Shown here piece by piece: positions 22,690 through 42,881 of a stretch of DNA of 64,000 bases. Under the pieces are notes generated by a model. It made no database searches. It was not told where the DNA came from and worked only from the letters and a program-made list of their open reading frames with translations. Location of the stretch: the NCBI GenBank assembly GCA_001314705.1, contig LJSU01000009.1, forward strand, positions 124,001-188,000. Reading direction: 5' to 3'. A program made the translations under genes and the position numbers. The stretch is from Rhodobacteraceae bacterium HLUCCO07. GTDB taxonomy: Bacteria > Pseudomonadota > Alphaproteobacteria > Rhodobacterales > Rhodobacteraceae. How positions within the stretch are numbered: position 1 is the first letter of the stretch; every line of letters starts with the position of its first letter.

Positions 22690-22797
22690 TTGAGAGTGCA
22701 GGATGAGCACACGGCGTTGGTTGCGGTGGCCGAATCGCGTGACAAGCGCAAAGCTGCCGGTTAACCTGCACTTATCTGCTCAAAAGAGGATGAAACA

Positions 22798-22932: not shown

Positions 22933-23170
22933 TCGACAGGTGTCGGGCGGCTGGCGGGGTCTTCGACCCTGATCCGGGCGCCCGGCACGCCGATCTTCCA
23001 CAGTGAGCGGGTCGGCTTGTACTGTCGCCATTTTGCGCCCGTCGATTGACCGCTGCGATGAAGCGAGTTCGGCATCGCGTATCCTTCCCGCAATCCGACC
23101 GCGGCGGTTGTGATCCGGGCAGATCTTCTTGTACCGTCTGGAATCTTCAGCACGAATCCGAGATTCCGGA
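22933..23170. other. Spacer without recognised gene before tRNA-Arg
   Basis: Between the small lipoprotein gene and the tRNA promoter. Open frames here look unlike neighbouring genes in composition and have no supporting features. An imperfect hairpin AATCCG-N6-CGGATT lies at about 23155-23172, just before the tRNA promoter. Confidence 0.4.
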
Positions 23171-23199
23171 TTGCGACCCGGGTGCGTCGAAGCTATAGA
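23171..23199 (+). promoter_or_regulatory. Promoter of tRNA-Arg
   Basis: A -35 box TTGCGA (23171-23176), exactly 17 bases of spacer, and a -10 box TATAGA (23194-23199) lie directly upstream of the tRNA. The distance from the -10 to the first tRNA base is 10, giving a very short 5' leader. Confidence 0.65.
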
Positions 23200-23209
23200 A
23201 GCACCAGTT

Positions 23210-23286
23210 GGACCCATAGCTCAGCTGGATAGAGCGCTGCCCTCCGAAGGCAGAGGCCAGAGGTTCGAATCCTCTTGGGTCCGCCA
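23210..23286 (+). tRNA. tRNA-Arg (anticodon CCG)
   Basis: A 77-base gene that folds into a full cloverleaf. Acceptor stem GGACCC pairs with GGGTCC, the D arm contains AGCTCAGCTGGATAGAGC, the anticodon stem is CTGCC/GGCAG with loop CTCCGAA (anticodon CCG at 23244-23246), and the T arm contains GGTTCGAATCC. The 3' CCA is encoded at 23284-23286. It reads CGG codons, which are common in this GC-rich genome. No duplicated tRNA 3' end is seen nearby, so there is no evidence that an element integrated here. Confidence 0.97.
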
Positions 23287-23487
23287 ACACCCGTGTCCAA
23301 CCAGTTTCCGTGTCCAGGAATCGTCGAACGCCAGGGCGCGAGTTGCCTGATTGCGGCGGAGACTCCAGATCCCTCACGTTGGCGTTCCGAGAATTGGTCT
23401 GAACGCACTTTCGAACATCATGACGCGCGACAGCGCCGCCGTTCTTTCGGACAGGCGAGGCAAAACGCTGTGATGGCGGCGCTGTGG

Positions 23488-27863: not shown

Positions 27864-28059
27864 GTCACCCCTGTGCATGGCGCATCCGCGTCGGCGTGCC
27901 ACCGTGCCGGACAAACGGGTGATAGAGCGCGACGTGTGCGAGAACGGGCCAGCGCCGTGTGACCAGCAGATCGGAATGGCCGGTGTAAACAGGTCTGCCG
28001 AGCATCATGTATCCTTTGCGTCGGTCGCGAGTCGCGATTGCGGTTGTCGAGAGATTATG

Positions 28060-28077
28060 TTAGTGAGCGATAACTTA
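28060..28077. promoter_or_regulatory. Candidate operator for the TetR regulator of the RND pump
   Basis: TTAGTGAGCGATAACTTA is an imperfect palindrome (6 of 9 positions symmetrical) in the divergent promoter interval. It resembles the AcrR/TtgR-like type of site (TTAGTGAGC...). It is 15 bases upstream of the TetR start, where autoregulation of the TetR gene and repression of the pump genes are expected. Confidence 0.45.
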
Positions 28078-28091
28078 CAAGGGGATACATC

Positions 28092-28706
28092 ATGGCGACG
28101 CGGCAAAGAGCAGCGGATCGAAAGGCGCAAATCGTTGGCGAGGTGTTGCGGCTGGCCGACGAGATCGGCCCCGATCGCCTCAGCACCGCGGATGTTGCGC
28201 GCGCCATCGGCCTAAGCCAACCTGCGATCTTCCGGCATTTTCCGACCAAGGGCGCGCTCTGGCTGGCCGTCGCAGAGGGCATCGCGGAGCGCCTGCGCGA
28301 GGCCTGGGCCGGTGCGGAGGCCGAAGCCGTCGCGCCGGAGGCGCGTCTCAGGGCGCTGATCGCTGCACAACTGACTGTGATCTCGGAAACGCCGGCCGTG
28401 CCATCTATCCTCTTCTCGCGCGAACTGCAGGTGGACAATCCGGCATTGCGCCACGTGTTTCGCGGGCTTCTGGGCAGTTTCCAGTCACGCCTTGTCGCAG
28501 CGATCGGAGAACTTCAGGCGGCCGGCAGCTTGCGTCGCGAGCCGAGTGCGGAGGATGTCGCGGTTCTGCTGACATCGCTGGTGCAGGGCGTCGCGATCCG
28601 CTGGACTCTGGGCGCGCGCGGCTTCGCGCTCGTCGACGAGGGTCTGCGGCTGCTGGACGTCCAGTTGGCGTTGATGCATGGAGAGCAGGGCATTTTACAT
28701 GACTAG
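28092..28706 (+). CDS. TetR-family transcriptional regulator
   Basis: A 204-residue TetR repressor. The N-terminal helix-turn-helix reads LSTADVARAIGLSQPAIFRHFPTKGALW (residues about 30-57), followed by a ligand-binding domain with a C-terminal TetR_C-like helical region. It diverges from the RND pump genes, and its likely ligand is a pump substrate. It is followed, with an eight-base overlap, by a small membrane-protein gene. Confidence 0.88.
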   Translation: MATRQRAADRKAQIVGEVLRLADEIGPDRLSTADVARAIGLSQPAIFRHFPTKGALWLAVAEGIAERLREAWAGAEAEAVAPEARLRALIAAQLTVISETPAVPSILFSRELQVDNPALRHVFRGLLGSFQSRLVAAIGELQAAGSLRREPSAEDVAVLLTSLVQGVAIRWTLGARGFALVDEGLRLLDVQLALMHGEQGILHD

Positions 28707-29109
28707 GTCGAATCTGGTTCCCTGCATCGCGGGCGGTGTAGCCATCGCGTTCGGCGTCCTGACCGTCGCATCCGGCGGCACGACGCTTCTAGGCTCACTC
28801 GACATGGGGGCCGTCGTGCCGTTCGTGCTGTGGTTCAACACGGTCGCCGGGGTGGCCTATGTCGTTGCGGGCATCGGCCTCTGGCTGGGACAGCGGTGGG
28901 CCTTTGCCCTCTCGCTTGCGATCTTCATGGCGACGCTTCTGGTGTTCGCGGGCTTTGGCTTGCATGTCGCCCGGGGCGGGGCCTACGAGGTCCGCACGGT
29001 CTTTGCCATGGCGCTGCGCAGTGCGGTCTGGGGGAGTATCGCCCTTGCAGCGCGGCAATCCCCTCTTGGACCCGACCAGGATCGAAGCCGGGGCAGCGAC
29101 TTGCCTTAA
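28699..29109 (+). CDS. Small integral membrane protein of unknown function
   Basis: A 136-residue protein with four hydrophobic segments (LVPCIAGGVAIAFGVLTVA, GAVVPFVLWFNTVAGVAYVVAGIGLWLG, WAFALSLAIFMATLLVFAGFG, VFAMALRSAVWGSIALAA). The ATG overlaps the end of the TetR gene by eight bases, so co-translation is likely. A longer start at 28678 is possible but weakens the N-terminus. No domain recognised. Confidence 0.6.
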   Translation: MTRSNLVPCIAGGVAIAFGVLTVASGGTTLLGSLDMGAVVPFVLWFNTVAGVAYVVAGIGLWLGQRWAFALSLAIFMATLLVFAGFGLHVARGGAYEVRTVFAMALRSAVWGSIALAARQSPLGPDQDRSRGSDLP

Positions 29110-29189
29110 CGGGTCCCGCCCGGTTAGGTTCGCCTTCAGATCAACCCTGTGCGCGGGTGCGCCTCAGGGACAGGAAGGGAAAGGCAATT

Positions 29190-29837
29190 ATGAACAAGGA
29201 TTCCGGGAAAGGCACGCTTCAATCGCTGCGGCAGGGCTCTACCGATGCCCGGGCCGTCGAGGCATATTATGACGACTGGGCGGACGGCTATGATGCCACG
29301 CTGGAGACATGGCAATACCGCGCCCCCGAGGATGCGGCGGATCTGCTCGCGCCCTATCTCGGGAACGGCGTGCGGGTGCTCGATGTCGGCTGTGGCACGG
29401 GGCTGCTCGGTCGGGCGTTGCGGCGGCGGGCCGAGGTGATCCTGACGGGGATCGACATCTCCGCGGCGTCGCTGAAACAGGCCGAGGGCCACGGGATGTA
29501 TGAGCGGCTTGTGCGGCATGATCTTCAGGTGACGCCACTGCCGGTGGACGACGACGTCCAGGACATTGCCGCCTCGGTCGGGGTGTTGACCTACATTGCC
29601 GACGCCGAACCGTTGCTGCGCGAGATGTGTCGGGCCGTGCGACCCGGCGGCGTTGTCGCCTTCACCCAGCGCACGGATCTGTGGAAAGAGCGCAATTTTG
29701 CCGACATGATCGACCGGCTGGAGGGCGACGGCCTTTGGCAGCGCCTGCAAGTCAGCGCGCCGATGCCCTACCTGCCGGGAAACGCCGAGTTCGCGGATGA
29801 AATCGGGGTGATCCACACGCTCTGTCGCACGAAATGA
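29190..29837 (+). CDS. Class I SAM-dependent methyltransferase
   Basis: A 215-residue methyltransferase of the Methyltransf_11/25 type. The SAM motif VRVLDVGCGTGLLGRAL (near residue 63), motif II-like TGIDISAASLKQAEG and the post-motif DIAASVGVLTYIADAEPLL fit the class I fold. A strong site AGGAAGGGAAAGG precedes the ATG. The N-terminal region YYDDWADGYDATLETWQY resembles Williams-Beuren-type methyltransferases. Substrate unknown. Confidence 0.85.
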   Translation: MNKDSGKGTLQSLRQGSTDARAVEAYYDDWADGYDATLETWQYRAPEDAADLLAPYLGNGVRVLDVGCGTGLLGRALRRRAEVILTGIDISAASLKQAEGHGMYERLVRHDLQVTPLPVDDDVQDIAASVGVLTYIADAEPLLREMCRAVRPGGVVAFTQRTDLWKERNFADMIDRLEGDGLWQRLQVSAPMPYLPGNAEFADEIGVIHTLCRTK

Positions 29838-29971
29838 ACGGAACAGACCCCATGCCGGCAACCTCTGCGGACCGCGCTTTGCGTGCCGGTCGGCTTTGGC
29901 GACACGGTTCGGTCTGTTGACGCCAGACATCACATTGACGGTGCATGATCGGGGCGCCGGGATCAGGAGCT

Positions 29972-31615
29972 CTACGTGCCATCTCGATTCAGGCATTTCT
30001 GGAGGTTCCGGCGCAGCTCACCCTTCAATATCTTGCCCATCGGATTGCGAGGCAGGCTTTCGCAAATGAAAATGTTGCGTGGCACCTCGTAATCGGCCAA
30101 CGCATTCCGGCACAGCTCCTTCAACCCGTCGGAAATACCCTCGGGCGTCGCGCCCGGGCGTAACGTCACAACAGCCGCGACATCCTCTCCCAGATCGGGG
30201 TGCGGGACCGCGACGACCGCCGCCTCGAGCACATCAGGATGGCGATACAGCACGGTTTCCACTGCAACCGAGGCGATCTTGAGACCACCACGATTTATCA
30301 GGTCCTTCTTGCGATCACCAAACCACAAGTAGCCATCGCGATCCAAACGACCGACATCGCCCGTTCGGATGCGCCGCCCGCGAAAGCTCTTCTCGGTCGC
30401 ATCGGGGTTTCTGAAGTAACCGACGGCCACGGGCGCACCGGAAAGCGCGATCTCGCCCAATTCCCCCGTTGCAAGGGGCTGTGCCTCGTCATCGAGTATC
30501 TCGATGGTCATGCCCTCCATCGCGCGTCCGACAGAGCCAGCCTTTTCCTGCATACGCTCGGGCGGCAGGACGGTCCCCGCCGGGCCGCTTTCGGTCATGC
30601 CGTAAATCTGCACCTGCTGCACCCAGGGCCATAGATGCGCAATGCGATCCGTCAACTCCACGGGCATGCTCGCGCCGCCATTTGCGACCATGCGCAGCCC
30701 CGTCAGATCGTGGCGCGCAGGATCATGAGCCTGGGTCATGAAATTCAGGATCGAGGGCACACCATGGTAAAAGGTCGTCCCCTCATCGCGGACAAGATCG
30801 AGTCTGGCCTCGTTGTCGATCTGTCCCTCAATGACAAGGCCTGCCCCCGCGACCCAGCAGGACATGCCCGCCAGATTCAGGGCCGAACTCGTGAAAAAGG
30901 GAAATGCGCCCTGGTATATGTCATCGGAACGCAGGCCCAACGCTGCCCCGGTGCAGCGGCCAGTCGCGATCATCGTGCGGTGGGTGTGCATGACCGCTTT
31001 GGCCCGCGCCGTCGTGCCCGAAGTGAACAGCAGGCAACCCAGCGCATCGACCGACGGTTGCACCTCGATTGTCGGAGGCACCTCCCCGGCTGTCGGGGCG
31101 GTAAGGAGGGCCGGGTCAAGGATGATCGGCATTGCGTCGTCGAAACCCGGCTCGGCCCGGCACGCCAACTGACATCCCTCGACCAGGCGTTCGTGACCCG
31201 ATGCGTCGCAAAGCACAAGGCGTGGGGTTGTCAGGGCAATGGCGTGCCCGAGCTCAGGTGCCGCACTGCGCGTGTTCAACGGCACCGCGACCGCACCGAG
31301 CGTCAGCGCCCCGAGTGCCGCGACAAAACACTCCAGCGCCCAGTCATTCGTCAGATAGATTCCGAGGCGGTCGCCGGTCTTGAGCCCGCTTTGCCGCAGC
31401 CATGCGGCGGCGGCTCCGGCCGCCCCGTGCAGTTCCGAATAAGTCAACCGATGCCGGCCCAGCCCCTGTGACATCGCCGACAATGCAAGGGCCGTTCCCC
31501 TGTCCCGCGCCTGCCGCGCGAGCAAGGACGGAACGTTCTCTTCCCCGTCCAGCCCGTCCGATCCGGGATGCGAATCCGTTCCGGACCGAGAAGTTTCTGA
31601 TAACGGGCTGTGCAT
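29972..31615 (-). CDS. Acyl-CoA ligase (AMP-binding, class I adenylate-forming)
   Basis: A 547-residue acyl-CoA synthetase, last gene of the catabolic operon. The ATP-binding P-loop is LLFTSGTTARAKAVMHTH, with IYGMTESGP as motif A5 and GYLWFGDRKKDLINRGG as the hinge; the C-terminal catalytic lysine is in LPRNPMGKILKGELR. It should activate a carboxylic acid with ATP and CoA. Its substrate cannot be read from the sequence. It starts ten bases downstream of the TetR regulator gene. Confidence 0.9.
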   Translation of the reverse strand: MHSPLSETSRSGTDSHPGSDGLDGEENVPSLLARQARDRGTALALSAMSQGLGRHRLTYSELHGAAGAAAAWLRQSGLKTGDRLGIYLTNDWALECFVAALGALTLGAVAVPLNTRSAAPELGHAIALTTPRLVLCDASGHERLVEGCQLACRAEPGFDDAMPIILDPALLTAPTAGEVPPTIEVQPSVDALGCLLFTSGTTARAKAVMHTHRTMIATGRCTGAALGLRSDDIYQGAFPFFTSSALNLAGMSCWVAGAGLVIEGQIDNEARLDLVRDEGTTFYHGVPSILNFMTQAHDPARHDLTGLRMVANGGASMPVELTDRIAHLWPWVQQVQIYGMTESGPAGTVLPPERMQEKAGSVGRAMEGMTIEILDDEAQPLATGELGEIALSGAPVAVGYFRNPDATEKSFRGRRIRTGDVGRLDRDGYLWFGDRKKDLINRGGLKIASVAVETVLYRHPDVLEAAVVAVPHPDLGEDVAAVVTLRPGATPEGISDGLKELCRNALADYEVPRNIFICESLPRNPMGKILKGELRRNLQKCLNRDGT

Positions 31616-31625
31616 GGCGTGAATC

Positions 31626-32264
31626 TCAGGAGGTCGAGGCCGATTCTTCGGCTGCCGGGAGCATCATGCTGCTATCCAGACCCAAGCTTCGCGCGACCAT
31701 TCTCAGGTAGGTCTTCTTGACGTCAGGCGGCAGGTCGGTGATCTCATGTCCACTGACGGCATAGCGCTCGAGCAGGTATTCGCGCGCGCCGATCATCATG
31801 TAGGCGATGACCTCAAGCTCGCTTTCGTCAAATCCACTTATCTCGTTTGCATCCCATCCGCGCTGAAGCGAACGTGTGTATCCGCCGGCCATGCGGCGCA
31901 GATACTGCTGGTGGGCCTTGGGAGCGAAAAAGGCCGCCTCATTCAAGATCCGGTGCAGTGCCGGGTTATGCTGAAGGTATTCGAAGTTTGCGTCGAGGCC
32001 CTTTCTCTCACGTTCCGCAAGGGTCTTGGCGTCCATCGTCGCATCGGCGATGAAGCGTAACATGGCTTCACCGACATGTGGCAGCAACTGGTCAAACAGG
32101 TCCTGCTGGTTTTGGAAATAGAGATAGATGAGGCCATGTGCCACGCCCGCCTCTTCGGCAATTCGACCGATCGACGCCTTGCCATACCCATGTCGCCCCA
32201 CGACGACCGCCGCCGCGTCAAGAATGGCATTGCGTGTCGCCGCCTTTTTTTCCCGTTTCGCCAT
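31626..32264 (-). CDS. TetR-family regulator within the catabolic operon
   Basis: A 212-residue TetR protein starting MAKREKKAATRNAIL (a further ATG four codons upstream is possible; AAGG lies five bases before the chosen one). The helix-turn-helix is ASIGRIAEEAGVAHGLIYLYFQNQQDLF. The large C-terminal domain ends in a Ser/Thr-containing tail, EESASTS. It is placed between two acyl-CoA ligase genes and may bind an acyl-CoA, as FadR-like TetR proteins do, and control the operon through the palindrome at 41847-41867. Confidence 0.85.
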   Translation of the reverse strand: MAKREKKAATRNAILDAAAVVVGRHGYGKASIGRIAEEAGVAHGLIYLYFQNQQDLFDQLLPHVGEAMLRFIADATMDAKTLAERERKGLDANFEYLQHNPALHRILNEAAFFAPKAHQQYLRRMAGGYTRSLQRGWDANEISGFDESELEVIAYMMIGAREYLLERYAVSGHEITDLPPDVKKTYLRMVARSLGLDSSMMLPAAEESASTS

Positions 32265-32350
32265 GTGAACCTTCATTCGTTTCCAGAATCCCCGTCACAC
32301 TATCCGACGAAACAATTCGTGGACAAGGCGAGGCCAGGAGTTGTGCCGTT

Positions 32351-34009
32351 TTAACTCGGGTTCCCGGCCGCGCCGCGCAACTTCTCGCGGATCATATTCC
32401 GCAAGATGTGTTTTTGCACCTTGCCCGAGGCGGTGCGGGGCAGATCGTTCACTGCTTCGATCCGGTCCGGGCATTTCTGGCGTGCCAATCCATATTGCTT
32501 CAGGAAATCGACCAACTGCGCGACACTCGGCATCGGCGCCGAGGTTGCAGGGATCACGTAAGCGCATACACCCTCGCCCAGACGATCATGCGGCATCGAA
32601 ACGACGGCCGCTTCCTTGATGGCCGGATGCGTGTGCAGCGCATCTTCGATCTCCTTGGCACTCAGATTCTCGCCGCCGCGAATGATGATATCCTTCTTGC
32701 GTCCCGTCACGGTCAAGATACCATCGGCCGTGAGTATCCCAAGATCACCAGTGCGAAAATAACCCTGTGAATCAAAAGTTTCCTTCGTTGCCTCCGGATC
32801 GGTATAGCCGCGAAACAGCGATGGCCCCCGCGCAAGAATCTCACCTTCGATGCCTGGCGGAAGGGGCTGATCTTCGTCGTCGACGATTTTGACCTCCCAG
32901 TCATTCACTCGACCGTCGCTGCGGGCCGCTCGGTCGGGATCATCCAGGCATCCTTGGGTCACCATGGGGCATTCCGAGCTTCCAAACACCCGGAAGGCAC
33001 GACAGTTTTCAAACAACCTGTTGGCCCGGTCGATCAGAGCAGGTGGCACGGCTGCACCGCCACACGCATAGATACGCAGGCTGGGCAGGCGCTCTCCGAG
33101 CTTTTCCGCCTCGCTTGCCAACTCGGCAAGAAAAGGAGTGGCTCCGATCATGAAATCGACCTGTTCGCGGCGCGAAATCGCCAGCGCCTCAGCCGCGTCC
33201 CAGCGTTCCATCAGAATGGTCCGTGTCCCGAATTGAAACGGCATTTCCATTCCGTAGGAATACCCGGTCACATGTGTCACGGGACTTGGCATCAACAGGG
33301 TATCGCCTGCTTTCAATCCCCATGTCTCGAAGCTTTGACTGAGCGGGCGACGGGATTGATTGTGCGAATAGAGCACACCTTTGGGTTGGCCCGTGGTGCC
33401 CGAGGTATAGATGATCAGCTTCGCGTCATCGGGATCGGCAGCTTGTAACGCATGGTGGGCATCCCTGCCGCGCGCCTCGATGTCCTCAAACGCCAATTCC
33501 CCGGCACCCCGCACCGTGGCGACAGCCTTCAATCCCGGCAGCTCCGCGCGAAGCTCCTCGTAAATCGCGCCGTAATCCACTCCGCGCCAGCGCTCGGGAA
33601 TAAAGGCGATCCGCGCGCGACAATCAGCCAGGATGAAGGTCAGTTCCGCCTGCCGATAGATCGGTATGACGGGATTGATGACAAATCCGCCCAAGGCGCA
33701 CGCCACGTTCAGGATCACCGCTTCAGTCCAGTTGGGAAGCTGGAAGCTGACGGTGTCGCCCGGGTGAAGCCCGATCTCGTATAGCCCGCGCGCCATGTCC
33801 GTCGCCCGCCTCAGGCATGTCACATAATCCAGAGCGCCGCATTCATCCATCACGGCGATGTCGTCGGGATGGTCCTGGGCCATCCTTGTCGCGACGCCTG
33901 CCAATGTCAGTCCCGGCCATTCGCCGGCCGCACGGCGCGCGGTGCGCTCACCGGGCTCGAACCGCAGCGGCCAGGACCCCTGCGCTGGGGATGGTTTTTC
34001 AGACGGCAA
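32351..34009 (-). CDS. Acyl-CoA ligase (AMP-binding) with TTG start
   Basis: A 552-residue acyl-CoA synthetase. I place the start at a TTG (34007-34009, reading LPSEKPSP), because AAGGAG lies seven bases upstream; an ATG 30 bases earlier would extend further into the ABC gene. Key motifs: P-loop IYTSGTTGQPKGVLYSH, FGSSECPMVTQG, GILTVTGRKKDIIIRGGE and the catalytic lysine in LPRTASGKVQKHIL. It overlaps the upstream LivF gene by 11 bases, implying coupling. Confidence 0.9.
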   Translation of the reverse strand: MPSEKPSPAQGSWPLRFEPGERTARRAAGEWPGLTLAGVATRMAQDHPDDIAVMDECGALDYVTCLRRATDMARGLYEIGLHPGDTVSFQLPNWTEAVILNVACALGGFVINPVIPIYRQAELTFILADCRARIAFIPERWRGVDYGAIYEELRAELPGLKAVATVRGAGELAFEDIEARGRDAHHALQAADPDDAKLIIYTSGTTGQPKGVLYSHNQSRRPLSQSFETWGLKAGDTLLMPSPVTHVTGYSYGMEMPFQFGTRTILMERWDAAEALAISRREQVDFMIGATPFLAELASEAEKLGERLPSLRIYACGGAAVPPALIDRANRLFENCRAFRVFGSSECPMVTQGCLDDPDRAARSDGRVNDWEVKIVDDEDQPLPPGIEGEILARGPSLFRGYTDPEATKETFDSQGYFRTGDLGILTADGILTVTGRKKDIIIRGGENLSAKEIEDALHTHPAIKEAAVVSMPHDRLGEGVCAYVIPATSAPMPSVAQLVDFLKQYGLARQKCPDRIEAVNDLPRTASGKVQKHILRNMIREKLRGAAGNPS

Positions 34010-34718
34010 GATAACGCTCCTTGAGTTGCGGATCGGCATCGAAATCCTCCCAGTTCCCATCGAAAACGATACGGCCGCTATCGATCAGAATGACCCTGTC
34101 GCTCACACGGCGTGCAAAGCTCAGGTTCTGCTCGGCAATCAGCAATGCCAAGTCGCGTGTTTCACGGATGCGCGTGATATGCGCGGCCATTTCATCGACA
34201 ACGACCGGTGCCAGACCTTCGACGGGTTCATCGAGCAAGAGAAGGCGCGGTGCCCCCATCAATCCTCGTGCCACTGCGACAATCTGCTGTTGGCCACCGC
34301 TGAGTTGGTAGCCTGCTCGCTGCTTGAGCGGTTTCAGCAAGGGAAAGAGGTCATAGAGTTCATCGCTGGCGATAACCGATCCGGGGCGCGCCGCATGGCG
34401 GCCCAACTCGATGTTTTCAGCCACAGTGATGTTGGGATAGATGCGACGATCCTCAGGGACGAGAACGAGGCCGCGTTTCGTGCGCATATCAATGGGAATA
34501 CCTGCCAGATCCTCCCCGTCAAAGCGAACCTCGCCGACAACACGCGGCCCAGCATCGAGCAGGCTCTTCATCAACGTGGATTTTCCTGCGCCATTACGCC
34601 CCAAGAGTGCGACGCATTCGCCCGGTGCCACGTCCAGTTCTACATCCTGGATGATATGGCTGCCGCCGTAATAGGCATTCAATCCTCGGACGGACAACAA
34701 TGGTTCAGTGCTGGCCAA
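33999..34718 (-). CDS. Branched-chain-type ABC transporter ATPase (LivF-like)
   Basis: A 239-residue ATPase of the LivF group. Walker A GRNGAGKST, signature LSGGQQQIVA, Walker B LLLLDEPVEGLAPV, and LivF-type MRTKRGLVLVPEDRRIYPNI are present. It begins with a TTG overlapping the LivG stop, with GGGAGG eight bases upstream. It is the last transporter gene before the CoA ligase. Confidence 0.92.
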   Translation of the reverse strand: MASTEPLLSVRGLNAYYGGSHIIQDVELDVAPGECVALLGRNGAGKSTLMKSLLDAGPRVVGEVRFDGEDLAGIPIDMRTKRGLVLVPEDRRIYPNITVAENIELGRHAARPGSVIASDELYDLFPLLKPLKQRAGYQLSGGQQQIVAVARGLMGAPRLLLLDEPVEGLAPVVVDEMAAHITRIRETRDLALLIAEQNLSFARRVSDRVILIDSGRIVFDGNWEDFDADPQLKERYLAV

Positions 34719-35463
34719 GATAGACCTCCCTCACACGTGCATCAGCGCGCACCTCATGCGGCTCGCCCGAAGCGATTATTTCGCCGTGGTGCAGCACCGT
34801 GAGGCGCGTCGCCAGACCGAAAACGACCTCCATGTCATGCTCGGTCAGCAAGAGCGTCAGCCCGTAACGCTCACGCACCTGCGAAACCAACCGAACCGCC
34901 TCGGCCCTGTCTGACGGAGACATGCCCGCCGTCGGCTCATCGAGCATCAGTATCTGAGGGCGCAGCGCAAGGCTCATCGCAAGTTCGAGCCGCTTCTTGT
35001 CGCCATGCGACAAGGTGCCGGCAGATTCGTCGCGCGTATCCTCAAGTCCCAGCTCGAGCACCAGGCGCTCGGCCTCGTCCATCACTGCGTGGCGTGGTGC
35101 GATGTGACCGAAGCTCGACCATAACCCTTTGTCCTTGCGTTCGCGGGTCTCGATCGCAACGATCAGGTTTTCGAATGCCGACATCATCGGAAATATGCGT
35201 GCCACCTGGAACGAACGCCCGATTCCGCGCTGCACCCGCTCCCAGCCGGCCAATTGCGTTACGTCGTCCCCGGCCAATGTGATCGTGCCACTATTGATCC
35301 TTGTTTCACCGCTCAGGCAGCGGAAGAGGGTGGTCTTGCCGGCGCCATTCGGCCCGATCACCACATGAGCCTCACCATCTTCGAGATCGAAGTCGACGTT
35401 TTCCAGCACCTTGACAAGCCCGTAGGATTTATGGATCGCGCGGGCTTCCATGATCCGTGTCAT
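34705..35463 (-). CDS. Branched-chain-type ABC transporter ATPase (LivG-like)
   Basis: A 252-residue ATPase. Walker A GPNGAGKTTLFRCL, Q-loop region GIGRSFQVARIF, signature LSHGDKKRLELAMSL, Walker B ILMLDEPTAGMS and switch LTEHDMEVV are visible. The FQVARIF and LEHGDKK-like signature are typical of LivG. Starts at the last base of the LivM stop (ATGA overlap). The next gene, LivF, overlaps it by 14 bases. Confidence 0.92.
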   Translation of the reverse strand: MTRIMEARAIHKSYGLVKVLENVDFDLEDGEAHVVIGPNGAGKTTLFRCLSGETRINSGTITLAGDDVTQLAGWERVQRGIGRSFQVARIFPMMSAFENLIVAIETRERKDKGLWSSFGHIAPRHAVMDEAERLVLELGLEDTRDESAGTLSHGDKKRLELAMSLALRPQILMLDEPTAGMSPSDRAEAVRLVSQVRERYGLTLLLTEHDMEVVFGLATRLTVLHHGEIIASGEPHEVRADARVREVYLGQH

Positions 35464-36488
35464 TGGCCTGCCTCCGTTTTTCCGGATTGTTCATGTTGGG
35501 CTGGACTTGAGCCCTCTGCCATCCGCCTTGCCTTTTTTCGTCGACGCTTGAGCAGCCCCAGAAGGCCACCGGGGATCATGAGAACGACTGCCAATAGCAA
35601 TATGCCGACGGTGATCTCGGACAGGCCCTGCATCGTGCGCGTTCCAAAGTCGATTGTACCGAAGAGTATTGCCCCAACAGCAGGGCCCCAAAAGTATCCG
35701 GCCCCCCCCAGCAGCGTGAACAGAATGGGTTGCGTCGAAACGGTCCAGTATGCGATCTCGGGAGACGCGATCTGGGTAAACGGCACCATGACTGCACCGC
35801 AGAACGCAGCGATGCTGCCGGAAAGCACGAAAGCTGTCAGTTGCCAGACCTGGACATGCACACCCAGAAATGCCGTGCGGGTCATGTCTTGACGAATGGC
35901 TTGGATCAAACGGCCTGCCGGCGAGTTCTGAAAGCACCACAACATCATTGCGACCAGCGCCATCACGACAATGATGAAGTAATAGTAAGAGGTCGCGCTT
36001 GTCAGATCGATACTGAACACACCCAGGTCGATAACGGGTCGGCGAATGCCGACCAATCCGTCATTGCGACCCAAGAAGGTGGTTTTGGTGATCAAGATGT
36101 GGACAAGCTCGGAAAAGGCCAGGGTCAGAACGGCGAAATAGACACCGCTCGCCCGCCTCAGGGCGATGATCCCGAAAAGCAGCGCGATGAGCCCACCGCA
36201 GGCGGCGCCGAGCGCCAGCCCTATGACGAAGGGCACTTCAGGCATGCGAAGTGAAACGACTGCCATGGCATAGGCCCCGCCACCGAAGAACATCGCATGG
36301 CCAAAACTGAGAAGCCCAGCACCCGAGAACAGCAGGTTCCAGGACAGACCGAAAACGATGTTGATCGCAACCAGGCCGGCGAGAAACATCAAGCCGCTAT
36401 TGGCTACAAATGGCACCACGGCAAAGGCGGCGAGGCCGCATCCCGCGATCATGAGATTGGTGCGAAACCTTGCGCGATAGTCGATCAT
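35460..36488 (-). CDS. Branched-chain-type ABC transporter permease (LivM-like)
   Basis: A 342-residue permease with about ten hydrophobic segments, including the LivM signature NLLFSGAGLLSFGHAMFFGGGAYAM and FAVLTLAFSELVHILI. The start is the ATG overlapping the LivH stop (ATGA); longer frames run into LivH and are rejected. The C-terminus is Lys/Arg-rich (LKRRRKKARRM), a cytosolic tail that could contact the ATPases. Confidence 0.92.
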   Translation of the reverse strand: MIDYRARFRTNLMIAGCGLAAFAVVPFVANSGLMFLAGLVAINIVFGLSWNLLFSGAGLLSFGHAMFFGGGAYAMAVVSLRMPEVPFVIGLALGAACGGLIALLFGIIALRRASGVYFAVLTLAFSELVHILITKTTFLGRNDGLVGIRRPVIDLGVFSIDLTSATSYYYFIIVVMALVAMMLWCFQNSPAGRLIQAIRQDMTRTAFLGVHVQVWQLTAFVLSGSIAAFCGAVMVPFTQIASPEIAYWTVSTQPILFTLLGGAGYFWGPAVGAILFGTIDFGTRTMQGLSEITVGILLLAVVLMIPGGLLGLLKRRRKKARRMAEGSSPAQHEQSGKTEAGQ

Positions 36489-37372
36489 GCGGTTTGCTCC
36501 TTGCCCATGATGCCTTCCGGCTTGACCAGGAGGATGATGGCCAGCGCCAAGAGGAAAAAGATTCCCGGGTATTGCGGAAAGAAGTAGGTTCCAAAGCTTT
36601 CGATCAGCCCCAGCAACAGAGCGCCCAGAAACGCACCTCGGATGGATCCCATGCCCCCGACGATCACCACACCAAAAGCCTGCAAAAGGAAGATCCCGCC
36701 CAGCTCCGGCGAAAGACTCTGGTTCGGCATCAACAGCGCACCGGCGACACCAGCCATCGCGAAACTGAAGATCACGGTGATCAGGTAGATCCGCTTGACG
36801 TTCAATCCAAGAAGCTGCGCCATCCATGGATCGGCGGCGACGACGCGGATCAGCTGGCCCAACTGGGTGCGCGAAATGAACAGCTCAAGCCCGATATAGG
36901 CTAAAACCCCGCACAAGATGATGAAGATGGTAAAGGTCGGCATGAATACATTGCCCACGAACACGACCGAGTTCAGCGCGGGTGGCGGCGTCACACCAAG
37001 GTAGTTCAATCCCCAGATCAACTGGACAGCTCCGCCGCAGACCAGCAGCAACGCATAAGTGGCGATCAGCGAGTAAGCGTCCTCGACGTCGCGCAAACGG
37101 CGAAAGACCAGTGCATCAACCGCCCAACCCAAAAGTCCGACGACGAGACCGGCCAGCATTGCACCAACCAGGTAAAGCCAGAGCGGCAAGGATCCCCCCA
37201 TGCCTGTCATGAGCGAATAAGACACATATGCCCCGATCATGAAGAACCCTCCATGAGCAAAGTTCAGTATGTGCAGAATACCGAAAATCAGGGTCAGCCC
37301 GGCCGCGACAAGAAAGGTCGCCATGGCCCAGGCCAGCCCGTTGAACACGGTCAGGCCGATGTCATACAGCAT
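36485..37372 (-). CDS. Branched-chain-type ABC transporter permease (LivH-like)
   Basis: A 295-residue permease with eight hydrophobic segments. Typical LivH sequence: NGLAWAMATFLVAAGLTLIFGILHILNFAHGGFFMIGAYV near the N-terminus and GGMGSIRGAFLGALLLGLIESF near the C-terminus, the EAA-like loop. A 10-bp hairpin lies between this gene and the upstream binding-protein gene. Confidence 0.92.
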   Translation of the reverse strand: MLYDIGLTVFNGLAWAMATFLVAAGLTLIFGILHILNFAHGGFFMIGAYVSYSLMTGMGGSLPLWLYLVGAMLAGLVVGLLGWAVDALVFRRLRDVEDAYSLIATYALLLVCGGAVQLIWGLNYLGVTPPPALNSVVFVGNVFMPTFTIFIILCGVLAYIGLELFISRTQLGQLIRVVAADPWMAQLLGLNVKRIYLITVIFSFAMAGVAGALLMPNQSLSPELGGIFLLQAFGVVIVGGMGSIRGAFLGALLLGLIESFGTYFFPQYPGIFFLLALAIILLVKPEGIMGKEQTA

Positions 37373-37394
37373 CTATTTTGCTCCGGTTGGCTAG

Positions 37395-37417
37395 GGGCGG
37401 GGAAAGATTCCCCGCCC
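37395..37417. other. Strong intercistronic hairpin between the binding-protein and LivH genes
   Basis: GGGCGGGGAA-AGA-TTCCCCGCCC is a perfect 10-bp inverted repeat with a three-base loop, in the 64-base gap downstream of the binding-protein gene. There is no T-run on the minus strand, so termination is unlikely; it more likely stabilises the 3' end of the binding-protein mRNA after processing and keeps the permeases less abundant. Confidence 0.65.
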
Positions 37418-37436
37418 GGACTCTCGCATCCCCTGC

Positions 37437-38702
37437 TCAGAGGGCCTCAGTGTCCAGCATCTGGCCGGGACGCGCGGCCTCGATGACCTTCTCACCATCA
37501 AGCGAAACATAGTCGGTCACTTCAAAACCGTCGGGTGCCGAGGTCGAGGGCTCGATGAATGCCAGTTCGGCATTCTTGATGGCTTGGTTGTCCTCGGCCC
37601 GGATGTGGCGCACCCCGGTGGCGCTGTCAAAGCTCAGTCCCTTGAGTGCCGCGATGACGTCGCCGGTTTCGGTGCTGTCCGCCTTTTCGATCGCACCCGC
37701 ATAGGCCAGTATCGCGGCATGGGCCTCGGCCGCCCAGCCCATCGGATACTTGTCTCCGGTTCTTTCCACATAACGCTCATACAGGTTGTCGGAAAGCGGA
37801 TTGCCCTTGTTGGCCTCGAAATACCAATGGAACCCAGACCAGTGCGCGGGCGTTTCTTCCTTCATCGCGGTCGCCACGAGAAACTCATTTGCAGAGTCAA
37901 GCAGGACGTCGATCTTGTCGAAGAGCCCGAACGGGTTGGCTTGCTGATAGAGCGTGACCGCATCACCCCCATAGACCGAGGTGTAGATGCCTTCGACATC
38001 CTGGCGCATCGCTTGCGCGATGTAGTTGCGATAGTCGCCTGACCCGTAAGGGACCAGGATCGGGTCCGAAATGACCGCCTCTTCTCCGGTCAATTCCGGA
38101 ATGACCTTGCGCATGGTCGCTTCGAAGATCTTCCAGGTGGTGCGCCCGTATTCATGATCCGGGATGATCCCGCCCCATTTGCGCAACTCGGGCCGGCTGG
38201 TCGCGATATGCCGCACCAACCCTGCGTTCCGGCTGACCGGACTGTCGCCCACGCGGAATACATGCGGGTTGTAGTTCTCGTGATTGAGCTTTTCGGTGCC
38301 GGCCCCCGAGGTGATGACAACGCCACCCTCGCTCTCCATGAGAGACCCCATGGCCAAGGCCACGGCACTCGAGATGGTGCCGAGCTGCAAGTTGGCTCCC
38401 TCTCCGATCAGTTCGCGTGCCGCCACGGAAGCGTCGTTGGGGTTCGCCTTCGAATCTCGGAACATCAACGCAACTTCGCGCCCGTTGATTCCGCCATTCG
38501 CATTGACGTGTTCAACCGCGATCTCCGCTCCTTCGCGCACGAAATTGCCGATCAGTTGCGCAGGGCCGCTCAACGGGGTCACGACACCGATGTTGATCGG
38601 TCCCGATTGCGCCACCGCGCTGCGCAGGTTGACAAAAGGCATTGCCATGCCCGCAACTGCCATGCCCTTGACCAAGGCACGCCGGTTCATCTTGTTAGCC
38701 AT
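37437..38702 (-). CDS. Periplasmic substrate-binding protein of the Liv-type transporter
   Basis: A 421-residue binding protein (LivK/Peripla_BP_6 type). The signal begins MANKMNRRALVKGMAVAGMAM with a twin-arginine motif (NRRALVK), and cleavage is likely after SAVAQ near residue 32. The fold is recognisable from GPINIGVVTPLSGPAQLIGNF and AEIAVEHVNANGGINGREV. Such proteins in catabolic operons often bind aromatic or fatty acids rather than amino acids; the ligand is unknown. Confidence 0.9.
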   Translation of the reverse strand: MANKMNRRALVKGMAVAGMAMPFVNLRSAVAQSGPINIGVVTPLSGPAQLIGNFVREGAEIAVEHVNANGGINGREVALMFRDSKANPNDASVAARELIGEGANLQLGTISSAVALAMGSLMESEGGVVITSGAGTEKLNHENYNPHVFRVGDSPVSRNAGLVRHIATSRPELRKWGGIIPDHEYGRTTWKIFEATMRKVIPELTGEEAVISDPILVPYGSGDYRNYIAQAMRQDVEGIYTSVYGGDAVTLYQQANPFGLFDKIDVLLDSANEFLVATAMKEETPAHWSGFHWYFEANKGNPLSDNLYERYVERTGDKYPMGWAAEAHAAILAYAGAIEKADSTETGDVIAALKGLSFDSATGVRHIRAEDNQAIKNAELAFIEPSTSAPDGFEVTDYVSLDGEKVIEAARPGQMLDTEAL

Positions 38703-38746
38703 TCCAGTCTCCTCCCTAGATGGTGATCCAACCTTCGCGGTCAGAT

Positions 38747-39544
38747 CTATTCCCCCGTGAACACGGGTTTGCGCTTTTCGCGGAATGCGGCGACCGCCTC
38801 GCGATGATCCTTCGAAACGTTCGACATGGACTCGTAGGCAACGCCGGTATCCATGATGGAATGGGCCAGTTGCTTGAGCCCGATATTGGTCGTCACTTTT
38901 GTCCAGCGAATTGCCTTGCGCGCACCAGATGCCAGACGGTGCGCGAGAGCGTAGACATCCTCGTCAAGCTTGTCGGCCGGCACGGCGCGGTTGATCAAGC
39001 CCATCTGCGCCGCCTCGGCGGCCGGAATGGGATCGCCGGTGAGCAGGTATTCCTTGGCTCGCAAGTAGCCGATCATCTGCGGCCAGAGGATCGCACCACC
39101 GTCACCTGCGACAAGGCCGATCGACACATGCGGATCGCCGATCTTGGCCGTGTCCGCCGCAACGACGACATCACAGGTCAGTGCAATGGTGGCGCCCAGG
39201 CCGATGGCATGACCGTTCATCCGGCAAATCAGAGGCTTTTCCATGTCAAGCTGACTGAAAATGATGCGCTTGGCTTCGACCGCCGTCACCTCGAAGCGCG
39301 CGGGATCGTCGATTGCGTCCTGCATCCAGTCCACATCACCCCCGGCGCAAAATGCGCGGCCCGCCCCTGTCAGAACGATCACGTCCGAGTCCGGATCGTC
39401 ATTCAGATCGACGAACACGCTGGAAAGTTCCGAATGCAGCTTGGCATTCACCGCGTTCAGCGTTTCCGGCAGGTTCAAGGTCACGGTCAGCACCCGGCCG
39501 TCGCGCTTGAACGTCATCGTCTCGTATTTTTCAAACCTGTCCAT
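38747..39544 (-). CDS. Crotonase-family enoyl-CoA hydratase/isomerase
   Basis: A 265-residue crotonase starting MDRFEKYETMTFKRDGR, with AGGAG upstream. The oxyanion hole segment is LTGAGRAFCAGGDVDWMQDA, and HAIGLGATIALTCDVVVAA is typical. Of the two catalytic Glu residues of classical hydratases, the second is retained in AKEYLLTGDPIPAAEAAQMGL, but the first position holds His in GDPHVSIGLVAGDGG. So hydratase activity is probable but not certain; another crotonase reaction is possible. It is the third gene of the operon. Confidence 0.85.
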   Translation of the reverse strand: MDRFEKYETMTFKRDGRVLTVTLNLPETLNAVNAKLHSELSSVFVDLNDDPDSDVIVLTGAGRAFCAGGDVDWMQDAIDDPARFEVTAVEAKRIIFSQLDMEKPLICRMNGHAIGLGATIALTCDVVVAADTAKIGDPHVSIGLVAGDGGAILWPQMIGYLRAKEYLLTGDPIPAAEAAQMGLINRAVPADKLDEDVYALAHRLASGARKAIRWTKVTTNIGLKQLAHSIMDTGVAYESMSNVSKDHREAVAAFREKRKPVFTGE

Positions 39545-39566
39545 GTCTCTCCTCCCAATGTCTCGT

Positions 39567-40625
39567 TCATCCACTCGCGCTCAGCAGGGTTTGCCGATGC
39601 GTTTCGCCACCGCCCAACATGACTTGCAACATCTTGATCCGCCGAAGCCCTGCTCCCAACGGCAGATCATCGGTCATGCCGACACCGCCATGAAGCTGGA
39701 TCGCCTCTTTCGCGATATGCAGGGCACGGTCTATACTGCCCGTCACAGCCTGGGAAAGCGGGCGCGACTGCGCGTTGCCTTCCTCTGCCGCCCGGGCCGT
39801 TGCCAGAGCGAGCGAGCGGATCTCCTCCAGTGCGATGAACATGTCCGCCAGCCGATGTTGCAGTGCCTGGAAGCGGCCGATGGGCTGTCCGAATTGCTCG
39901 CGCTGCTTGACATAGGTGAGTGTCGCGTCGAAGAGCGACTTGCATAGACCGGTGCATTCTGCCGTCATCGTTGCCGCATGACAAAGGCGCGCCCTATCCT
40001 GCACCGTCCGCGCCGGATCACCAGAAGCAAGGATCATCTCGGGGCGCACGGCCATTTCCGAGAGTGCGAGGTCAACCTGGGTGGTGCCATCCATGGCGCG
40101 AAAACCGTGCTTGCCGATCCCGTCGGCATCTGCGTCGATCAGAACCGTGATATCATCAAGCGCAAGCACGACGACCTCCGCGGCATCGCCCATCGCAACC
40201 GCCGGAAATCGCCCGGACAGGCGAATATCGGACCCCGTTCGGCGGACCTCAAGGTTGCTTGCCATCTCTGGCAACAGCCCACAGGCCAACTTTTGTCCGG
40301 CCATAATTTCGGCCAGCAGGTCGGGCGCCCCCCCGCTCTCCTCAAGCATGTTGAGCGCCATGAAAACGGGCGTCAGGCGCCCTGCCAATGGCGTCGATGC
40401 TGCGCCTTCGATGACCACCGCCATCTCGCGGGATCCACCAAATCCGCCGGCGGATTCGCTCACGCCGGCCGAAAGCCAGCCCAATTCGGCGATCTGGCGC
40501 CAGCCGTCGGGGTCATGATGCGCTTCGGCGCCACCGTTGGGTCCGGTTCGATCGGAATTGTCCGCCACGAGCCGCGCAACGCTCTGCGCAAGCATGGTTT
40601 GTTCGTCGGTCAGGTTCAGTTTCAC
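39567..40625 (-). CDS. Acyl-CoA dehydrogenase, smaller subunit of a pair
   Basis: A 352-residue acyl-CoA dehydrogenase, short for the family (usually 380-400), with a GTG start. The C-terminal region YVKQREQFGQPIGRFQALQHRLADM and AIQLHGGVGMTDDLPLG are recognisable, but the central beta-domain is abbreviated. It lies 12 bases downstream of a full-length dehydrogenase. Paired, unequal dehydrogenases of this kind form heterotetramers in steroid side-chain degradation, where only one partner is catalytic; whether this applies here is inference. Confidence 0.85.
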   Translation of the reverse strand: MKLNLTDEQTMLAQSVARLVADNSDRTGPNGGAEAHHDPDGWRQIAELGWLSAGVSESAGGFGGSREMAVVIEGAASTPLAGRLTPVFMALNMLEESGGAPDLLAEIMAGQKLACGLLPEMASNLEVRRTGSDIRLSGRFPAVAMGDAAEVVVLALDDITVLIDADADGIGKHGFRAMDGTTQVDLALSEMAVRPEMILASGDPARTVQDRARLCHAATMTAECTGLCKSLFDATLTYVKQREQFGQPIGRFQALQHRLADMFIALEEIRSLALATARAAEEGNAQSRPLSQAVTGSIDRALHIAKEAIQLHGGVGMTDDLPLGAGLRRIKMLQVMLGGGETHRQTLLSASG

Positions 40626-40637
40626 GTGACTCTTGCC

Positions 40638-41795
40638 TCAACCCAGGCCAAGCGCGTGCTTGGCAATGATATTTCGCTGAATCTCGTTGCTGCCGCCCCA
40701 GATGGTCGGCGCACGCTGGAACAAGAACTCGGAGACGATCCCCATGTTTCGCAACGCCTCTGCCGCGGGATCGTTCGTCTCCGCTTCGAGTCGCGCCACA
40801 TCGTAGGCAATGGCCTGTGGACCCAATGCATCGACCGTGCATTCGGCTATGGATTGCACAATGGTCGATCCCCTGAGCTTGAGGATCGAGGCCTCGAACC
40901 CGGGCGCGGACCCGTCCATCACCGCGTCCAGCATTCGCAGCGTGGTCCATTCCAAGGCCAGCAGATCAGTTTCGAGCTTGTTCAACTGCGTCCTGAAATG
41001 CGGATCCTCGTCGAGGTGTCGCTCGGCCATGACAGCACGCAATCGGTCCAGCATGCGCTTTGCCTTGCCAATCTCGGCAGAAAGGACACGCTCGTGGCCG
41101 AGAAGGAACTTGGCATAAGTCCAGCCCGCGTTTTCCTCGCCCACAAGATTTTCCGCGGGAACGCGAACATTATCGAAAAAAACCTGGTTCAGGTGATGTG
41201 CGCCCTCGATCGACCGGATCGGCCGGATGGACACGCCCGGAGACTTCAGGTCGATCAGAAGGAAGGAAATCCCGCGCTGTGGCTTGACCTTGGGATCGGT
41301 GCGCACCAGCGCAAAGATCCAATCGGCCCAATGCGCCATCGAGGTCCAGATCTTGGCCCCGTTGACCACGTAGCTGTCGCCGTCGCGTTCGGCGCGGGTG
41401 GACAATTTCGCCAGATCCGACCCAGCGCCCGGCTCTGAATAGCCCTGGCACCAGAATACTTCGTTCGAAACGATACCCGGCAAGTGCCGTGCCTTCTGTT
41501 CTTCGCTGCCATAGGTGTAGATCACCGGGCCGACATAGTTGACGCCGAATGGCAAAAGCCAGGGCGCACCGGCACGGGTGGTCTCTTCCTGGAAGATATA
41601 GCTTTGTGCAGGTGACCAGTCGCAGCCTCCGAACTGTTTCGGCCAGAAACCTGCGATCCAGCCCTTGGCCGCCAAGATATCCTGCCAATGCATGTGGTCG
41701 TCACGCTGCAAGGGGCGACCCGACATGACCTTGTCACGAATATCGGCTGGCAAGCGCTCTTTGGTGAACGCCCGCACTTGCTGCCTGAAGGTCAT
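40638..41795 (-). CDS. Acyl-CoA dehydrogenase, full-length member of a pair
   Basis: A 385-residue FAD-dependent acyl-CoA dehydrogenase, first gene of the operon. FAD/substrate-region motifs include GYSEPGAGSDLAKLSTRAERDGD and WTSMAHWADW, and the C-terminus has the typical RAPTIWGGSNEIQRNIIAKHALGL. The start MTFRQQVRAFTKER is preceded by GGGAGG. Substrate is unknown; a neighbouring operator and the Liv transporter suggest a transported carboxylic acid. Confidence 0.88.
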   Translation of the reverse strand: MTFRQQVRAFTKERLPADIRDKVMSGRPLQRDDHMHWQDILAAKGWIAGFWPKQFGGCDWSPAQSYIFQEETTRAGAPWLLPFGVNYVGPVIYTYGSEEQKARHLPGIVSNEVFWCQGYSEPGAGSDLAKLSTRAERDGDSYVVNGAKIWTSMAHWADWIFALVRTDPKVKPQRGISFLLIDLKSPGVSIRPIRSIEGAHHLNQVFFDNVRVPAENLVGEENAGWTYAKFLLGHERVLSAEIGKAKRMLDRLRAVMAERHLDEDPHFRTQLNKLETDLLALEWTTLRMLDAVMDGSAPGFEASILKLRGSTIVQSIAECTVDALGPQAIAYDVARLEAETNDPAAEALRNMGIVSEFLFQRAPTIWGGSNEIQRNIIAKHALGLG

Positions 41796-41846
41796 GTCCT
41801 CCCTAGACCATCCTGCGTCCAAACCCGATCCTCCCTCGCTTCGAAC

Positions 41847-41867
41847 TGATTACTGATTCAGTATTCA
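41847..41867. promoter_or_regulatory. 21-bp palindromic operator of the catabolic operon
   Basis: TGA-T-TACTGA-T-TCAGTA-T-TCA: apart from three single-base spacers, every base has its symmetrical partner. It lies about 50 bases upstream of the first gene's ATG, where a promoter would be expected. The TetR regulator in the operon (31626-32264) is the obvious candidate to bind it. Prediction only. Confidence 0.65.
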
Positions 41868-42191
41868 TTTATCATGCTGTTTTGCGCAGACCTGTCAACG
41901 ACCATTTTGGATTCGTGGATTCGAAACCTGTGGCGCAAGCCAAGCGGGTGGGGGCGAGTCATCGCATTCCATTGATATCTTGTCTTTTCGCGCTACGTAT
42001 GAACGCGAAAATCTTGTGAAACGGCGCCGGACACCGACGTTCGGATCAAAGCGCAGCGATAGCCGGACTACTGAAGACCACGCATACCGCTATTCAAACA
42101 TTGTCCGCGCTGAGCTGCCGATACGATTCGTGCATATCGCGCATCCTCGCGTTTCGTGGAGTCACGGGCTTGCGGCATATCAGGGCGGGGA
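41868..42191. other. Spacer without recognised gene
   Basis: About 320 bases between the operator of the catabolic operon and the end of the pseudouridine synthase gene. Composition is mixed, with short AT-rich stretches. No open frame with convincing composition, tRNA or terminator with a T-run is visible. Confidence 0.4.
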
Positions 42192-42881
42192 TCACCAGGG
42201 GTCCTGCGCCTGGACAGGTCGCCACTTTCCGGGTGCGAGGGTGCCCAGCCGCCAATCGCCGATGGCCACCCTGATCAATCGCAAGGTGGGATGACCCGCC
42301 GCGGCGGTCATGCGCCGAACCTGGCGGTTGCGGCCTTCGGTGATGGTGAGTTCGATCCAGCTGTCGGGAACGGTCTTGCGCTGGCGCACGGGTGGCGTGC
42401 GGGGCCAGAGCCATTCCGGTTCGGGAATCAGTCGCGCGTGGGCAGGGCGGGTCAGGCCGTCCCTGAGCATGACACCCCGACAGAGGGAGTCGAGCGCGGA
42501 TGCGTCGGGGATGCCTTCGACCTGGGCGAGGTAGGTCTTGGGCAGCTTGAAGCGCGGGTTGGAAATGCTCGCCTGCAAGGCGCCGTTATCGGTCAGCAGC
42601 AAAAGCCCCTCGCAGTCGCGATCGAGCCGACCGGCGGGGTAAACTCCCTTTTCGGAAATGTAATCGCCAAGCGTCGGGCGCGGCGGATCGGATCGGTCGG
42701 TGAACTGGGTCAGCACGCCATAGGGTTTGTTGAAGAGGATCAGTCGGGGGGCGGTCTCGGGCGGGGAAGAGCGGGGGCCAGCCCCCGCACCCCCGGAGTA
42801 TTTCGGGCAAGATGAAGGGGCTGAACCGGGTTTGCGGCGCGGTTTGCGCGCCGGGCCCCGGCCGGGGTCACGCGTTGCCAT
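42192..42881 (-). CDS. 23S rRNA pseudouridine synthase (RluE-like) with an extended N-terminus
   Basis: A 229-residue synthase of the RsuA/RluB/E/F family. The catalytic aspartate is in [20 protein letters not shown], with [12 protein letters not shown] and [18 protein letters not shown] also typical. There is no S4 domain, which fits RluE. I place the start at the ATG 42879-42881, overlapping the trpE stop by 14 bases, because no other ATG or GTG start precedes RLILFNKP. The result is a roughly 45-residue N-terminal extension ([17 protein letters not shown]...) that encodes the repeat at 42796-42817. Confidence 0.8.
42796..42817 (-). repeat. Short 3'-end repeat, copy 2, inside the RluE-like N-terminus
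   Basis: Identical to the copies at 12908 and 47576. On the minus strand the repeat is followed by a strong hairpin at about 42774-42791 (GCGGGGGC-TG-GCCCCCGC). It lies just after trpE, but, unlike the other copies, it is translated ([13 protein letters not shown]) if the pseudouridine synthase starts at 42881. Confidence 0.75.

Follow-up and report, generated by a model that had tools for sequence, protein, structure and literature searches.

A Mobile Eleven-Gene Cassette for the Putative Uptake, Coenzyme A Activation, and Initial Oxidation of a Carboxylic Acid in Marine Alphaproteobacteria

The 64,000-nucleotide stretch of Rhodobacteraceae bacterium HLUCCO07 DNA analyzed here (contig LJSU01000009.1, positions 124,001 to 188,000; referred to below as the window) contains a cassette of eleven genes, all on the minus strand (window positions 29972-41822). 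The first two genes, acadL (40638-41822; 394 amino acids) and acadS (39567-40625; 352 amino acids), encode the predicted alpha and beta subunits of a heteromeric acyl-coenzyme A (acyl-CoA) dehydrogenase, as judged from best PDB matches and, for acadL, alignment. They are followed by the gene for a crotonase-fold protein (38747-39574; Pfam ECH_1) and by transporter genes for a periplasmic substrate-binding protein (37437-38702) with a Peripla_BP_6 domain and an RR-containing N terminus, a LivH-type permease (36485-37372), a LivM-type permease (about 35460-36488, over-extended to 36827 in the mechanical list of open reading frames), a LivG-type ATPase (34705-35463), and a LivF-type ATPase (33999-34718). 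The last three genes encode acyl-CoA ligase 1 (32351 to about 34060; start codon uncertain), a TetR-family regulator (31626-32276), and a long-chain/FadD-like acyl-CoA ligase 2 (lig2; 29972-31615). A preliminary description of this DNA had listed two acyl-CoA dehydrogenases, a crotonase, a Liv-type transporter, two ligases, and a TetR regulator on one strand, and all are present where it placed them.

A gap of 12 bp separates acadL from acadS, which overlaps the crotonase gene by 8 bp, and 44 bp lie between the crotonase gene and the gene for the substrate-binding protein. The latter is 64 bp from the LivH gene, after which the junctions as far as ligase 1 are overlaps of 4, 4, 14, and up to 62 bp. 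The largest gap in the cassette, 74 bp, is between ligase 1 and tetR; lig2 follows tetR after 10 bp. Translation of acadL starts at a TTG codon with an upstream GGGAGGA ribosome-binding site; the full cassettes found elsewhere start with ATG. Upstream of acadL is rluE (42192 upwards), a core-genome gene, and downstream of lig2 is a convergent methyltransferase-like gene.

For finding further copies, acadL proved the better bait, since acadS changes quickly and cassettes are uncommon. When acadS was used in a search (E <= 1e-60) of about 445 genomes from the class, two of them from the same genus, only the window's own copy was recovered. With acadL as the bait in the genome-collection scan, six loci were found at 79-86% identity and one at 67%. 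Gene order and strand matched those of the window in Lutimaribacter (L009), a Phyllobacteriaceae metagenome-assembled genome (L010), Sulfitobacter (L011), Zhengella mangrovi (L012), and an uncultured Rhodobacteraceae bacterium (L013), with lig2 behind tetR complete in L010 to L012 and partly seen in L009 and L013. In Roseovarius TE539 (L014) the order is kept up to tetR; the contig ends just beyond it, and lig2 was not found in that genome at cassette-level similarity. Plasmid pTM2 of Tistrella mobilis carries all eleven genes at 32-71% identity, with lig2 moved between the genes for the crotonase and the substrate-binding protein. The flanks of the cassettes are essentially not common between loci, with the exception of one flavin oxidoreductase homologue near the L010 and L011 cassettes.

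A 21-bp imperfect palindrome, TGAATACTGAATCAGTAATCA (41847-41867, minus strand), lies 45 to 25 bp before the acadL start codon and consists of the half-sites TGAATACTGA-A-TCAGTAATCA. This putative operator abuts a candidate promoter (41870-41898, minus strand) read from the sequence as TTGACA (41893-41898) and ATGATA (41870-41875), 17 nucleotides apart, and TTGACA is likewise found upstream of cassettes L009, L010, and L012 to L014. The sequence TGANTANTGAWTCANTANTCA or a close variant precedes acadL in all eight cassettes, 35-46 bp ahead of the start codon. With an operator matrix built without the tested sequence, this site was still the top one in each cassette, at 24-35 bits, against a maximum of 16 bits in 500 shuffles. 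The 13-bp core of the operator occurs at one place on either strand of the window (shuffle mean, 0.12 matches; none reached 2), and the 21-bp motif at a single place in the 3.43-Mb genome, up to one mismatch allowed.

The palindrome follows the regulator gene. No operator-like site was found in four loci (L015, L090, L137, and L138) that keep acadL-acadS-crotonase and have no orthologous TetR. A Neorhizobium module whose TetR is 39% identical has a 22-bit operator match 115 bp before its first gene. This co-occurrence is a correlation; it nevertheless suggests a dedicated repressor that probably regulates its own gene. The regulator carries the TetR_N domain and its gene co-occurs with a palindrome, as expected for a TetR-family repressor with a local operator; binding itself is predicted. 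An acyl-CoA ligand is suggested because the nearest NCBIfam model, although its cut-off was not reached, is the fatty-acid regulator FadR of Bacillus. The earlier proposal of a single unit with its own TetR was supported by synteny in independent genomes and by an operator that tracks tetR.

The eleven-gene cassette is a horizontally transferred, mobile unit. It lies within an 18.9-kb insertion (23287-42191) between rluE and a plus-strand tRNA-Arg(CCG) gene (23210-23286) that forms the left edge. In a genome of the same genus (G002) sufS, tRNA-Arg(CCG), rluE, and trpE are within a few kilobases of each other, which represents the empty site, and acadS was not found in two same-genus genomes. 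An insertion at the 3' end of a tRNA gene that is absent from a close relative constitutes a tRNA-associated island. The G+C content of the cassette is 60.0%, versus 63.5-64.1% on either side. SufS served as the yardstick for transfer; TrpE gave no match in two Hyphomicrobiales-type genomes. The SufS of the window shares 77-78% identity with its Sulfitobacter and Roseovarius counterparts but 64% with the proteins of Zhengella and the Phyllobacteriaceae metagenome-assembled genome. The cassette proteins are equally similar to those of all four genomes, within and between orders (ten-gene means of about 77-79%).

The insertion also contains a resistance-nodulation-division (RND) efflux pair with a divergent TetR gene (23488-28706) and the methyltransferase-like gene beside the cassette (28830-29837), for which ten genomes of the same genus or family gave no match. 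The 67% G+C content of the efflux genes points to a probable composite origin of the insertion.

We infer that AcadL and AcadS form a heteromeric (predicted alpha2beta2) steroid-type acyl-CoA dehydrogenase. The best PDB matches of AcadL are 6wy8_B, the Tcur3483 chain of Tcur3481-Tcur3483, and 4x28_A (ChsE4), and that of AcadS is the other subunit of the former complex, 6wy8_A (Tcur3481), at 26% identity. The top Foldseek matches of the predicted AcadS structure (predicted local distance difference test score [pLDDT], 86) were the two Tcur3481 chains, 6wy8_C and 6wy8_A, with 4x28_C (ChsE5) at rank 8. Across 10 aligned copies, AcadL has Glu244 (in GHER) at the position of the isovaleryl-CoA dehydrogenase-type base and invariant GYSEP and KIWT motifs, and it lacks QxxGG. 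AcadS has the ADP-ribose motif, QLHGG at residue 310 (EAIQ.HGG across the copies), found in AcadS only, and it lacks the flavin (isoalloxazine) and active-site motifs of AcadL. Structures of the ChsE enzymes place the isoalloxazine of flavin adenine dinucleotide (FAD), the catalytic glutamate, and the substrate in the alpha subunit, with the ADP-ribose contacted by the beta subunit (PMC10925408). Two neighboring genes whose products each come closest to the corresponding subunit of a solved complex, with complementary motifs divided between them, support at the sequence level the earlier suggestion of a steroid-type heteromeric enzyme. That suggestion had paired a full-length with a short dehydrogenase; the pairing stands, but AcadS is no fragment, as its 352 amino acids model as a complete acyl-CoA dehydrogenase fold.

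Glu244 and Pro91 of AcadL align with ChsE4, and Pro91 is invariant in the 10 aligned copies. The corresponding proline of ChsE4, also Pro91, is a pocket-opening residue (PMC10925408). A bulky or branched substrate is proposed mainly because of this alignment, which is suggestive only. AcadS evolves much faster than its partner: identities between the window and the other cassettes are 52-64% for AcadS, 79-86% for AcadL, and 87-94% for the crotonase. The genome holds two more adjacent alpha/beta-type acyl-CoA dehydrogenase pairs (G000:C7:72994-75258 and G000:C10:16035-18260).

Among curated families, AcadL scores highest with the PimC model (TIGR03204) and AcadS with the PimD model (TIGR03203), which raises the possibility of a pimelate or dicarboxylate beta-oxidation operon of the Rhodopseudomonas pim type. 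However, both scores fall far short of the curated cut-offs (413 of 623.85 bits for PimC and 125.8 of 652.7 bits for PimD), and neither identity was accepted. Furthermore, the cassette has no PimF or thiolase gene, and the C7 locus of the same genome matches pimC more strongly (477 bits) and also includes genes for its own beta subunit and a FadB/PimF-like protein. A pim-type function for the cassette is very unlikely.

The substrate-binding protein, two permeases, and two ATPases make up a complete Liv/HAAT-type ATP-binding cassette transporter. The binding protein scored 79.3 of 477 bits against the model for LivJ-type branched-chain amino acid binding and reached no Liv or urea model. Its predicted structure was poor (pLDDT, 57). 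Its PDB matches to 3i45 and 3nnd were stronger than those to 4evq and 4f06, which we take to be aromatic-acid binding proteins. Both ligases have the AMP-binding and AMP-binding_C Pfam domains of AMP-forming acyl-CoA ligases, with the core motifs TSGTTGQPKG/GKVQK and TSGTT/GKILK. In the PDB, ligase 1 is similar to aryl-acid AMP ligases; among curated families, it is nearest to medium-chain fatty acid ligases and then to the cyclohexanecarboxylate-CoA ligase AliA (TIGR03208; 414.5 of 792.3 bits, below cut-off). The curated cut-offs ruled out the AliA and LivJ identities.

Scavenging of branched-chain amino acids or short fatty acids would accord with the name of the transporter superfamily and with the resemblance of ligase 1 to medium-chain fatty acid ligases. 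It is highly improbable as the function of the cassette, however, with a binding protein so far under the Liv cut-off and no Liv or urea model reached. Amino acid catabolism needs no CoA ligase, and such scavenging is not known to involve heteromeric dehydrogenases.

The crotonase-fold protein can be aligned with EchA8 along almost its entire length and has Thr129 and His149 in place of the two EchA8 glutamates. Thus, it does not have the glutamate pair of canonical enoyl-CoA hydratases (E144 and E164 of the rat enzyme). Threonine or serine at the first position and histidine at the second are found in every cassette copy and likewise in relatives from Bradyrhizobium, Terrarubrum, Methylobacterium, Variovorax, Rhodococcus, Paraburkholderia, and Neorhizobium. 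This retention across cassettes and relatives indicates a broad crotonase subfamily, with the signature GLGAT...GDPHV...GLVAGDGG, rather than a decayed gene. Hydration by two glutamates is closed to such an enzyme, and therefore hydration via other residues, isomerization, or C-C hydrolysis is possible. The literature yielded no match for crotonases without the glutamate pair or for the gene set. The preliminary description had reported no thiolase or ring-cleavage gene. The cassette indeed has no thiolase gene (the genome has six thiolase-domain genes at other loci), but the absence of ring cleavage cannot be assumed because the crotonase is no canonical hydratase.

The lack of a thiolase might instead reflect an operon for aromatic side-chain (phenylpropanoid-type) acids, in which a ligase and a dehydrogenase are followed by a crotonase of the hydratase-lyase kind; acetyl-CoA would be released at that step, which would make a thiolase unnecessary. 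The similarity of ligase 1 to aryl-acid AMP ligases is in line with this alternative, and Liv-type transporters serve aromatic acids in Rhodopseudomonas palustris. However, feruloyl-CoA hydratase-lyases keep one catalytic glutamate, whereas both are replaced in the cassette crotonase; the presumed aromatic-acid binders are the poorer matches to the binding protein; and the cassette includes no aldehyde dehydrogenase or ring dioxygenase. A phenylpropanoid-type pathway is therefore unlikely. More speculatively, and with considerable doubt on our part, the GLGAT/GDPHV crotonases might carry out a nonhydratase step, such as hydrolytic C-C cleavage or a double-bond shift, directly after the heteromeric dehydrogenase. 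The cassette would then be a dedicated mobile plug-in of marine alphaproteobacteria for a terpenoid- or steroid-derived acid covered by no described operon.

Genes near relatives of the cassette components provide further clues. Plasmid neighborhoods of ligase 1, acadL, acadS, and crotonase relatives include ring-hydroxylating dioxygenases, short-chain dehydrogenases/reductases (SDRs), thiamine pyrophosphate (TPP)-dependent enzymes, and thiolases, and define no single pathway. Neighborhoods rich in SDRs, oxygenases, and TPP enzymes fit alicyclic or polycyclic compounds in general and pick none. Downstream of the Sulfitobacter cassette (L101, 1623-17404) are genes, named by reading the sequence without a family scan, for a Baeyer-Villiger-like flavin monooxygenase, an alpha/beta hydrolase, a tripartite ATP-independent periplasmic (TRAP) transporter, two acyl-CoA carboxylase-like subunits, SDRs, and an alcohol dehydrogenase. 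The monooxygenase, hydrolase, SDRs, alcohol dehydrogenase, and carboxylase-like genes would suit a module that acts downstream in the degradation of cyclic ketones (terpenoid or cycloalkanone) and imports ring-opened branched oxo-acids, a special case of the explanation favored below. Such flanks are found at one locus only, and this narrower version is improbable. TPP-dependent E1/transketolase-like genes recur beside acadS, ligase 1, or crotonase relatives in Sphingobium, Methylobacterium, and Variovorax (L132, L137, L138, and L154).

The explanation that best accommodates these observations, which we hold with moderate confidence, is a horizontally acquired module, repressed by TetR, that takes up a bulky, branched, or alicyclic carboxylate, activates it with CoA, and carries out its first dehydrogenation, with host beta-oxidation finishing the pathway. 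The Liv-type transporter would import the acid, and one or both AMP-forming ligases would form its CoA thioester. The heteromeric dehydrogenase, with its enlarged pocket, could then introduce an alpha,beta double bond, and the crotonase-fold enzyme may act on the resulting enoyl-CoA by chemistry other than two-glutamate hydration. Later steps, catalyzed by 3-hydroxyacyl-CoA dehydrogenase and thiolase, would be supplied by the host. TetR is predicted to bind the 21-bp palindrome and so repress the single acadL promoter; its release is probably triggered by an acyl-CoA of the pathway.

Several points weigh against this explanation. Transcription, repression, activity, and all functional steps are deduced from sequence. 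VIA-align Z-scores of the AcadS model were tied between beta subunits and isovaleryl-CoA dehydrogenases, so that in these models fold alone does not discriminate AcadS as a beta subunit. The substrate class depends mainly on one proline and nearest-family similarity, and enzymes of the PimC type, which act on linear dicarboxylates, are closely related (413 bits). Gene distances of lig2 correlate poorly with those of other cassette genes, and therefore lig2 may be a looser member. Flanking direct repeats were not found, with no 11-mer common to 22656-23487 and 41823-42200, and no integrase was seen among the called open reading frames, for which no family scan aimed at integrases was made.

Even so, the cassette very probably lets marine alphaproteobacteria import a carboxylic acid, probably a bulky one, attach CoA to it, and start its oxidation under one switch. 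It is a well-bounded orphan module built from known kinds of parts. As the preliminary description had stated, it could not be matched to a known pathway: neither literature queries nor family cut-offs pointed to a described operon of this kind. The cassette offers a clearly delimited and testable unit, found in several unrelated genera, in which an orphan transporter, a pair of ligases, a heteromeric dehydrogenase, and an odd crotonase are linked to one regulator and its operator. If the ligand of a single binding protein were identified, the entire gene set would be annotated, and a first function could be given to a widespread crotonase subfamily (present in Proteobacteria and Rhodococcus) without the textbook catalytic residues.

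Like the cassette pair, Tcur3481-Tcur3483 and ChsE4-ChsE5 (FadE26-FadE27) are two-gene enzymes in which the alpha subunit has the helix G base and a pocket-widening proline and the beta subunit has the FAD-ADP site (PMC10925408). In contrast to the steroid systems, the cassette has no steroid genes, another operon structure and regulator, and low sequence identity (26% for AcadS to 6wy8_A). PimC/PimD, the pimeloyl-CoA dehydrogenase of R. palustris, represents the nearest curated families, but the cassette pair is far below both cut-offs, and a closer PimC relative and a PimF-like gene are elsewhere in the genome. AliA is the second-nearest curated family to ligase 1, which falls below its cut-off, and no counterparts of aliB, badH, or badI were identified in the cassette. 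EchA20/BadI-type ring-opening crotonases likewise act on acyl-CoA with a crotonase fold without being hydratases (PMC5380842), but EchA20 clusters with MenB, whereas the cassette crotonase belongs to the GLGAT...GDPHV...GLVAGDGG subfamily. The plasmid module of Neorhizobium petrolearium (L091) has crotonase, ligase 2, substrate-binding protein, LivHMGF, ligase 1, and TetR genes in line, with a weaker upstream operator match, but there one dehydrogenase (29% identical to AcadL) and an SDR replace acadL-acadS.

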